A stretch of 64,000 nucleotides of DNA. Origin: Gammaproteobacteria bacterium. Its GTDB lineage: Bacteria > Pseudomonadota > Gammaproteobacteria > Steroidobacterales > Woeseiaceae. The translations under genes were made by a program, and so were the position numbers. Location of the stretch: contig JAUIDP010000003.1 in NCBI GenBank assembly GCA_030429005.1, positions 1 to 64,000 on the forward strand, given 5' to 3'. Shown piece by piece: positions 24,905 through 26,949 of the stretch (positions within the stretch are counted from its first letter, which is position 1; each line of letters starts with the position of its first letter). The notes below the pieces were generated by a model that did no database searches, had not been told where the DNA came from, and was given only the letters and a program-made list of their open reading frames with translations.

Positions 24905-25279
24905 ATGGCAAGTGATGAAGGACAACAACATCCCCTGAAAATCTACTGGATCATGTGGATCGCGCTGTTCGTGCTCAGTGGCTTCTCCTACGCCACGGAC
25001 TTCATGGACGACGGTGCGGTACGGACCTTCCTGATCCTGACATTCATGATGCTGAAAGCCGGCGGCATCGTCTGGATCTTCATGCACATGGGCTGGGAAC
25101 GGCTCGCTCTCAAGCTCGCCATTCTCGGGCCCCCGGTTGCCATCGGTGTGCTGATCTGGCTGATGTCCTACGAGGGCTTTTACGTCGAAGACAATCGCCA
25201 CGAAAACCTCGGGGAGAGCACCTTCGTTCCCACAGAAGTCCATCACGGTGCCTCTAAAGACGAGGAAGCGGCGCACTAA
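24905..25279 (+). CDS. Cytochrome c oxidase subunit IV family protein
   Basis: The 124-residue protein has three hydrophobic helices: YWIMWIALFVLSGFSYA, an FLILTFMMLKAGGIVWIFMH segment and a third with AILGPPVAIGVLIWLM. This matches the small subunit IV (CtaF/CyoD-like) that ends caa3 operons. A hydrophilic, acidic C-terminal tail of about 35 residues follows. It starts 10 bp after the subunit III stop and ends the oxidase operon. The first palindromic repeat begins 22 bp after its stop and could help terminate or stabilise the mRNA. Confidence 0.88.
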   Translation: MASDEGQQHPLKIYWIMWIALFVLSGFSYATDFMDDGAVRTFLILTFMMLKAGGIVWIFMHMGWERLALKLAILGPPVAIGVLIWLMSYEGFYVEDNRHENLGESTFVPTEVHHGASKDEEAAH

Positions 25280-25301
25280 ACCAGAAGTGTAAGTCGCAAC
25301 G

Positions 25302-25397
25302 GGGCCGGAATGGCCATCGGGAGATTCCTCTCCCTCATGGCTCGGCGAGCCTGCGCTTTACTTCGGTCGAAGAACATCCCGATGGCCATTCCGGCCC
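25302..25397 (-). repeat. Palindromic repeat unit 1 in a 21-bp perfect inverted repeat
   Basis: Arms at 25302-25322 and 25377-25397 are perfectly complementary over 21 bases (left arm begins GGGCCGGAATGG). The 54-base loop is the core repeat in reverse orientation. Its first 39 bases, read on the minus strand, match unit 3 at all but a few positions. The outer arms share nothing with those of unit 2. Confidence 0.8.
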
Positions 25398-25455
25398 TCC
25401 GGTCTTGCGTGGAACAGTACCCCGGTCTGCAGCACGTGCCCAGGCTGAGCGAATG

Positions 25456-25557
25456 TGGGAGCTGCCCCGGCGTTCCGGGTGTTTCTCCTCGAGAACTCAA
25501 GCGCAGCGAAGCGAGCCATTCCGAGGAGGAATACCCGGAACGCCGGGGCAGCTCCCA
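25456..25557 (+). repeat. Palindromic repeat unit 2 in a 25-bp perfect inverted repeat
   Basis: Arms at 25456-25480 and 25533-25557 are perfectly complementary over 25 bases (left arm begins TGGGAGCTGCCC). The loop is the core in plus orientation but is the most diverged of the three, with AAGCGCAGCGAAGCGAGCCA in the middle. Pairing continues into the core with mismatches, giving a very stable cruciform or RNA hairpin. Confidence 0.8.
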
Positions 25558-25575
25558 AACGCCTTCGCAAGCCCT

Positions 25576-25653
25576 GTCGGCGGGGTGTTCCTCGACCGAA
25601 ATAAAGCGCAGGCTTGCCGAGCCATTCGGTCGAGGAATACGCCGTCGGCGGGG
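25576..25653 (+). repeat. Palindromic repeat unit 3 flanked by a 10-bp direct repeat
   Basis: The core (25586-25640) has a 13-bp perfect inner stem, TTCCTCGACCGAA at 25588-25600 against 25625-25637. Unlike units 1 and 2, it is flanked by a direct repeat, GTCGGCGGGG, at 25576-25585 and 25644-25653. A direct repeat of that size could be an insertion-site duplication. Confidence 0.7.
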
Positions 25654-25711
25654 CGTAGCCTGAACAGCGCGCGTGGGCAGCGTTGTTTAGGGTTCGTGCA
25701 AGAGGTGACGG

Positions 25712-25743: not shown

Positions 25744-26949
25744 ATGGGCAGGGCGATTATTGCAGTGTTGGACTCGTTTGGTATCGGCGCTACGGCTGAT
25801 GCGGACCGCTTTGGTGATGTGGGTGCGGATACGTTCGGCCACGTCGCGGCGGCGCGCGCGGCATCGGAGGACGGACCCTTGCAGTTGCCGAACCTGGCAA
25901 AGCTGGGCCTGTTTCATGCGGGCCGGGACAGCACGGGCGCGTTTGCGGCCGGGGCGGATGAGAACGTCGAGGTCGTCGGTGCCTACGGATTTGCCGAGGA
26001 ACTCTCGAGTGGCAAGGACACTCCCAGCGGACACTGGGAGATTGCGGGTGTCCCGGTGTTGTTTGACTGGGGCTATTTCACCGGCAAGGAAAACACCTTT
26101 CCGCAGGAGTTGCTGGACAAACTGATCGAGCGTGCCGGTCTTCCCGGTGTGATCGGCAATTGTCACGCGTCGGGCACAACGATTATTGCGGAGCTTGGTG
26201 ACGAGCATGTGCGGACCGGCAAGCCGATCGTCTATACGTCAGCGGACAGTGTCTTCCAGATTGCCTGTCACGAAGAATCATTTGGCCTGCAAAGATTGTA
26301 CGAGCTTTGCGATATTGCCCGCGAACTGGTCGACGACTACAACATTGGCCGCGTGATCGCGCGGCCGTTTACCGGCAGTGATGCAGCTTCGTACGTGCGC
26401 ACAGGCAACCGCCGGGACCTGACGACACCACCGCATGCGGATACGCTGCTCGACAAACTGGTTGCGGCCGGTGGCGAAGTCATCAGCGTCGGCAAGATTG
26501 CAGACATTTATGCGCACCAGGGCATCAGCAGGAAGATCAAGGCGACCGGAAATGCGGCCTTGTTCGACGCGACCCTTGAGGCGCTGCGGGATGCCGGTGA
26601 CCGTTCGATCGTCTTCACCAATTTTGTCGACTTTGACATGCTGTACGGCCATCGCCGGGACGTAGCCGGGTATGCCGCGGCGCTGGAATACTTCGATCAG
26701 CGCCTGCCGGAACTTCTCGAGTTGATGCAGCCGGACGACGTGCTGGTGATCTGCGCCGATCATGGCTGCGACCCGACCTGGCAGGGCTCGGATCACACGC
26801 GTGAGCACATCCCGGTGCTGGTCTACGGCAAACAGGTGCCACCCGGACCGCTCGGCAAACGCGAGTCCTTCGCGGACATCGGCCAGTCCCTGGCCGGCTT
26901 CTTTGGCCTGGCGCCGATGGAGTATGGCAAGAGTTTTCTGAACGCCTAG
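25744..26949 (+). CDS. deoB: Phosphopentomutase
   Basis: The 401-residue cytoplasmic enzyme interconverts (deoxy)ribose 1-phosphate and 5-phosphate, linking nucleoside phosphorolysis to the pentose phosphate pathway. The alkaline-phosphatase-fold metal site is visible: Asp in [16 protein letters not shown] near the start, the [11 protein letters not shown] phospho-Thr loop, and the C-terminal CADHGCDPT and [12 protein letters not shown] blocks. The family name and length fit fully. It lies alone between a repeat array and a convergent gene, about 32 kb from deoA. Regulation may involve the inverted repeat at 25712-25731. Confidence 0.95.

Follow-up and report, generated by a model that had tools for sequence, protein, structure and literature searches.

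Integron attC sites keep their single-strand structure while much of the stem sequence varies, and at the stem foot they carry conserved R and L boxes that are used by IntI. The 85-nt hairpins described here resemble them in keeping structure over variable stem sequence, but differ in that the tip is conserved and the foot is not. Among bacterial interspersed palindromes, REPs of the GTAG superfamily have stems of 5-13 bp, and CGTC-tagged REPs, which like the present repeats are palindromic and have no dedicated transposase, have 8-9 bp stems, the CGTC tag and a CCA tail (PMC3733652); tag, short stem and tail are all absent from the 85-nt hairpin. Template switching in replication, in turn, is known to produce hairpins with perfect stems, simultaneous changes on two sides and inverted copying (PMC8794818). 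The 85-nt hairpins are of the REP-like, interspersed-palindrome kind and lie outside the REP definitions tested (tag, stem length and RAYT link).

The window analysed (64,000 nucleotides, positions 1 to 64,000 of contig JAUIDP010000003.1 from a gammaproteobacterium of the Woeseiaceae) contains three related palindromic units at 25302-25653 in orientations -, + and +, as the initial annotation had described. A covariance model delimits each to 85-86 nt (E 9e-14 to 2e-16) and, run over the whole window with E up to 1, returned no match beyond these three. Unit 1 (25307..25392, - strand, 68.5 bits) has a 22-nt core at 25337-25358 with the tip gCTCGc and a single-stranded DNA fold with a z of -3.4. 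Unit 2 (25464..25549, + strand, 78.4 bits) has a 21-nt core at 25499-25519, the tip GCGAAGC and a single-stranded fold of -36.8 kcal/mol (z -8.5), and unit 3 (25570..25655, + strand, 67.1 bits, z -7.8) a 22-nt core at 25604-25625 with the tip gCTTGc. The core pattern AAGCGCAG..CGAGCC occurs three times in the window against 0.01 expected and is therefore not there by chance. All three units occupy the non-coding gap between the stop codon (25279) of a cox-operon subunit IV-like gene (24905..25279, + strand; a gene call whose function is inferred from position and sequence) and a phosphopentomutase (deoB)-like gene beginning at 25744 (25744..26949, + strand; identified from sequence), the latter being conserved DNA in 71 of the 73 genomes of the genus. 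The right (R) arm of unit 1 points to the stop codon of the cox-IV-like gene, with its end 27 nt away. Unit 3 had been thought to have a direct repeat instead of paired arms; in the covariance-model alignment 26 of its 28 stem positions pair in the standard way, and the supposed direct repeat is a CGGCG stretch that is nearly self-complementary. In a near-identical strain unit 1 carries GCGAAGC in place of GGCTCGCC. Compared with L130, from a near-identical strain, the window diverges only in a short block (25240-25348) that covers the gene end and unit 1, a pattern that suggests recombination or mixing during assembly.

Across about 200 sites the expectation held that a conserved core lies between arms which vary from copy to copy but remain self-complementary. 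For mutual information, 141 non-redundant sites were anchored without gaps on the 21-nt core. From k = 7 to k = 34, each L(k) had R(k-4) as its best partner, and further out the signal was lost, so that the paired stem spans L7-L34 with R3-R30 and the element has a fixed length of 85 nt (34+21+30) with a 28-bp stem. Towards the tip, the stem gives way to an internal loop that is conserved (GAAGTA-AAGCG.A / GAGCCAT-GA) and then to the terminal mini-hairpin, GC-GNA-GC; beyond L35/R31 the information content is about 0, and no base is conserved at the stem foot or outside it. The stem itself has almost no fixed sequence and is spelled differently at almost every copy. In 39 diverse copies, stem pairing reached 89.2% against 53.9% with shuffled partners, and the covariation score 0.885 against 0.206, falling to 0.14-0.19 when partners were slid by one to three columns; changes on both sides were seen at all 28 stem pairs. 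Double-changed cells numbered 413 compared with 121 after shuffling, and right arms exchanged between sites fail to pair (15.5 against 2.4). Shape, not spelling, is kept in the stems, and the arms look unrelated yet self-complementary because the stem sequence is free and the pairing is not.

The initial annotation had read the repeat as a cassette that lands in or generates palindromes. Its first half would have the cassette inserting into hairpin loops already present, for instance those of terminators, with host sequence as arms, and is mostly wrong. The arms of copies within one genome are indeed unrelated, several ~295-bp units of genome G037 lie inside copy-specific inverted flanks, and hairpin loops do harbour, at GC^CAT, a distinct element of 21 nt, TCCCGTCAAGCGGGATCGAGA; but the stem keeps a constant 28 bp across sites, ending at L34/R30, and orthologous slots that lack the element (L362, L370, L365, L372) show no unfilled palindrome. 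Orthologous copies in related species moreover keep pairing while the arm sequence changes, and this, together with the constant stem length, means that the arms belong to the element; insertion into host hairpins is accordingly very improbable. A weaker form of the second half survives. The ~295-bp G037 units carry 30-bp inverted ends, and in several of them the host flanks outside are mutual inverted copies of up to about 36 bp, while in some no inverted similarity between the host flanks was found. Copy-specific inverted flanks of about 15-36 bp are present at L424, L421 and L418, and the palindrome at L424 contains the last codons of a murA-like gene. The murA-like C-terminus is conserved in the listed relatives, which have different downstream sequence, so one side of this palindrome is native and the other is its inverted copy, again against arms borrowed from a pre-existing hairpin. 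L016 was considered as a further case of inverted copying and set aside: its right-hand gene end, GGTGGCTAG, is native, yet homologues of the left gene at times end in GG-stop as well.

Stem mismatches, read on the core strand at 189 sites, are strongly asymmetric: G.T outnumber A.C (368 vs 68), G.A outnumber C.T (272 vs 38) and G.G outnumber C.C (138 vs 14), and they are scattered along the whole stem. In the 141-site alignment G.T makes up 8.0% of cells and A.C 2.2%. A symmetric cruciform would give no such bias, which supports a single folded strand, overall the core strand. In G037, as an exception, the wobble bias is reversed (0.14 G.T vs 1.43 A.C per hairpin), because an A.C mismatch is common to its copies.

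Gene calls made for this analysis with a simple codon-usage method place 120 of 205 classifiable sites in convergent gene gaps, 80 in tandem and 5 in divergent ones, against baseline shares of 27%, 52% and 21%. Copies abut stop codons at gene 3' ends, with convergent ends favoured. Among gaps in which just one end has a stop within 25 nt, that end is R rather than L in 26 vs 9 tandem and in 24 vs 5 convergent cases. In tandem gene series the element met first tends to be antisense and near the stop, and in most copies the core strand runs antisense to the gene it abuts. A role in the sense mRNA was rejected, since the orientation relative to the abutting gene argues against it. As the folding strand is mostly not the mRNA of that gene, it folds either as DNA or as an RNA product of read-through that starts on the opposite side; from orientation and loop types, both indirect, we infer DNA.

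The main rival is an RNA element acting on antisense read-through, in which transcription from the opposite side yields a core-strand hairpin at which antisense transcripts would end or be cut ahead of the gene, each hairpin of an inverted pair guarding one gene. In its favour, the R end abuts the stop of the gene read towards it, convergent ends are strongly enriched, stem covariation with a G.U-like tolerance is typical of RNA, and one apex, at L390 in genome G007, resembles a two-way terminator. The R arm is, however, generally followed by no U-tract (no T-run after it in the listed sites, the L390 apex being exception-like), nothing promoter-like is conserved outside the stem, and the 22 single, sense-oriented tandem copies would not fit. 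The 4-nt tips observed (GTCA, GCCA, GTTA) are not GNRA loops either, and we consider the RNA reading possible though doubtful. Rfam gave only sub-threshold matches, the best to microRNA models.

The tips are GNA loops in about 200 of 225 cases, a conservation that is overstated in so far as the first sites were collected with the exact core; the remainder include GNNA and gCNNGc, and 4-nt tips are few. The tip mini-stem is 2 bp or longer and mostly of the form GC-GNA-GC, the variants being CC-GNA-GG, AC-GCA-GT, a 7-bp stem, GNNA loops, GG-CTTG-CC and GG-CTCG-CC, and its changes come as paired changes. GNA and GNNA loops closed by at least two G-C pairs are exceptionally stable DNA loops in vitro (PMC4686876), and d(gCNNGc) is given the same standing by Nakano et al. 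(2002), as cited in PMC2984261. At L390 (G007:C5:1709-1823) the mini-hairpin is replaced by AAAAAAGGCAGGCCCGGACGGGCCTGCCTTTTTTTT, an arrangement of A-tract, GC hairpin and T-tract like that of a two-way intrinsic terminator. The element TCCCGTCAAGCGGGATCGAGA always stands at GC^CA(T) within hairpins (L093, L160, L290, L357, L360, L363, L367, L372, L373); its hosts are two repeat families, the core of the 85-nt hairpin and a GTAG-headed REP, and it has the look of a mini-element landing in the tips of palindromes.

Paired changes of this kind could also arise by mutation only, with template switching rewriting one arm from the other and no selection for folding. The mechanism is documented (PMC8794818), the murA end was copied in inverted form, and minimum-spanning networks that link close copies show more double than single Watson-Crick changes in G092 (149 vs 44), G037 (9 vs 2) and G005 (23 vs 14). 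Among close copies in G051 and G049, by contrast, single changes prevail over double ones (29 vs 4 and 28 vs 4), the G092 stems change less (0.31-0.36) than the spacers (0.52), and mutation only predicts no strand bias, yet G.T lies far above A.C; we regard this explanation as improbable. The stronger statement, drawn from the double-versus-single counts, that all arms are templated was rejected, given the single changes in G051 and G049 and G092 spacers that are near saturation, because of which strong selection explains much of the excess. The 85-nt hairpins thus share perfect stems, simultaneous two-sided changes and inverted flank copies with the hairpins made by template switching, but they form a dispersed family with strand-biased mismatches, so selection acts on them too.

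The further copies sought in this genome and its relatives make up that dispersed family, which is carried by a group of marine bacteria. The host genome, a 3.14 Mb draft that is 84.8% complete, has 17 exact cores and 20 covariance-model matches, and one relative carries up to 60. Relatives with the core are mostly Woeseiaceae (Gammaproteobacteria): covariance-model matches occur in 61 of 73 genus genomes, in 7 of 18 other genomes of the family and in 3 of 58 elsewhere in the order, and within a class sample of 369 three genomes of other families (G201, G299, G504) have a clearly similar 95-nt version. A viral element was rejected, a phage search being without match and IMG/VR giving one viral contig. 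Many copies occupy the same gene-end slot, such as the rpsJ-rplC gap, in species that are 75-91% identical, with paired stem changes between them. Even where slots are shared, the inner type follows the lineage, and at one slot the G051 and G049 copies are mutually inverted between flanking GTAG-type REPs. The spacers that separate paired hairpins in G092 differ by about 52%, yet the tips are intact and the stems still pair; resident copies have therefore persisted for a long time, which weighs against the explanation preferred below in that it hints at some role for the host besides mobility.

Copies often form inverted pairs, whose spacing hardly varies in G037, G092 and G005, and pair units of ~240-295 bp, present in some genomes, look like the dispersing unit in several. 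Direct repeats of 3-9 nt at the ends of the 85-nt element show no excess, that is, no target duplication. A comparison of L217 with L156 revealed a seemingly empty site, which could be a deletion. The initial annotation had also held that the arms behave unlike those of an ordinary REP or MITE. They do vary more than in the REP families of PMC3733652, but constant arms exist as well, in the type B subfamily (G049/G051), which has a ~200-bp extension and behaves like an ordinary MITE. This subfamily and the G037 units with their inverted ends are MITE-like; what separates the family from MITEs is the lack of target duplication and a common constraint that is the 85-nt hairpin, not the ends.

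Much of this also recalls canonical REPs, REPINs or BIMEs mobilised by RAYT transposases encoded in the same genomes: short imperfect palindromes in many intergenic copies at gene 3' ends, often in inverted pairs, with apparently strand-specific single-stranded hairpins and no target duplication, and RAYTs occur in 48 of 73 genus genomes. The stem of 28 bp, however, is free in sequence and outside the 5-13 bp range, the conserved part is the tip and no unpaired GTAG stands at the hairpin foot (PMC3733652, PMC8266576). A Y1/RAYT-type transposase linked to the core, as had been proposed, was not found: the 30 RAYT loci examined are flanked by other repeats and none by the core, and the copy-rich G051, G049 and G034 have no RAYT match. 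A canonical REP is thus very unlikely.

The best explanation, to which we give about an even chance, is a new REP-like family with a core strand that would fold in single-stranded DNA form, its shape and tip being what a putative enzyme recognises. Beyond the observed geometry, covariation, strand bias, location and spread, the core-bearing strand would fold when single-stranded, and the enzyme would read shape plus tip in a manner likened to that of TnpA-REP, IS200/IS605 transposases and integron integrases on folded strands; no enzyme linked to the 85-nt element was found, the Y1 (RAYT) genes that were inspected being accompanied by different repeats. With sequence constraint confined to the tip, and the stem bound only to pair, copies would drift in spelling through paired changes. 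Template switching in replication probably helps to make these changes and may sometimes extend the palindrome into the host flank, L424 being the one strong example. More tentatively, and with much less confidence, the family may represent a third superfamily of bacterial interspersed palindromes, defined by recognition of single-stranded DNA shape with a stem free in sequence and fixed in length, in which propagation or replication copies one arm, and sometimes the end of the adjoining host gene, across, each copy thereby making a palindrome of its own. If the REP-like reading is right, hundreds of natural hairpins in tens of genomes keep length and pairing over a nearly free stem sequence, and their tip corresponds to the DNA mini-hairpins of greatest known stability in vitro. 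How folded single-stranded DNA is recognised independently of sequence, outside integrons and REPs, would then become testable, as would the origin of paired stem changes, stepwise or in one template-switch event.

Other repeats accompany these hairpins in the genus. RAYT genes (L230-L251) have short repeats of their own on their flanks, either GGTGACAGTGACC or GGGGTCAGACCCC. At L356-L374, in loci of G032, G049 and G053, GTAGGAGCCCGCC..GGCGGGCTCCTAC repeats with GTAG heads, by their sequence apparently typical REPs, occupy many of the same gene-end slots. In the deoB slot of G027 (L060:1314-1450) two copies of a different conserved centre, GCYTCACTTARWACCCCATGCG, have arms that are self-complementary and mutually unrelated, and these would represent a second family of similar design.
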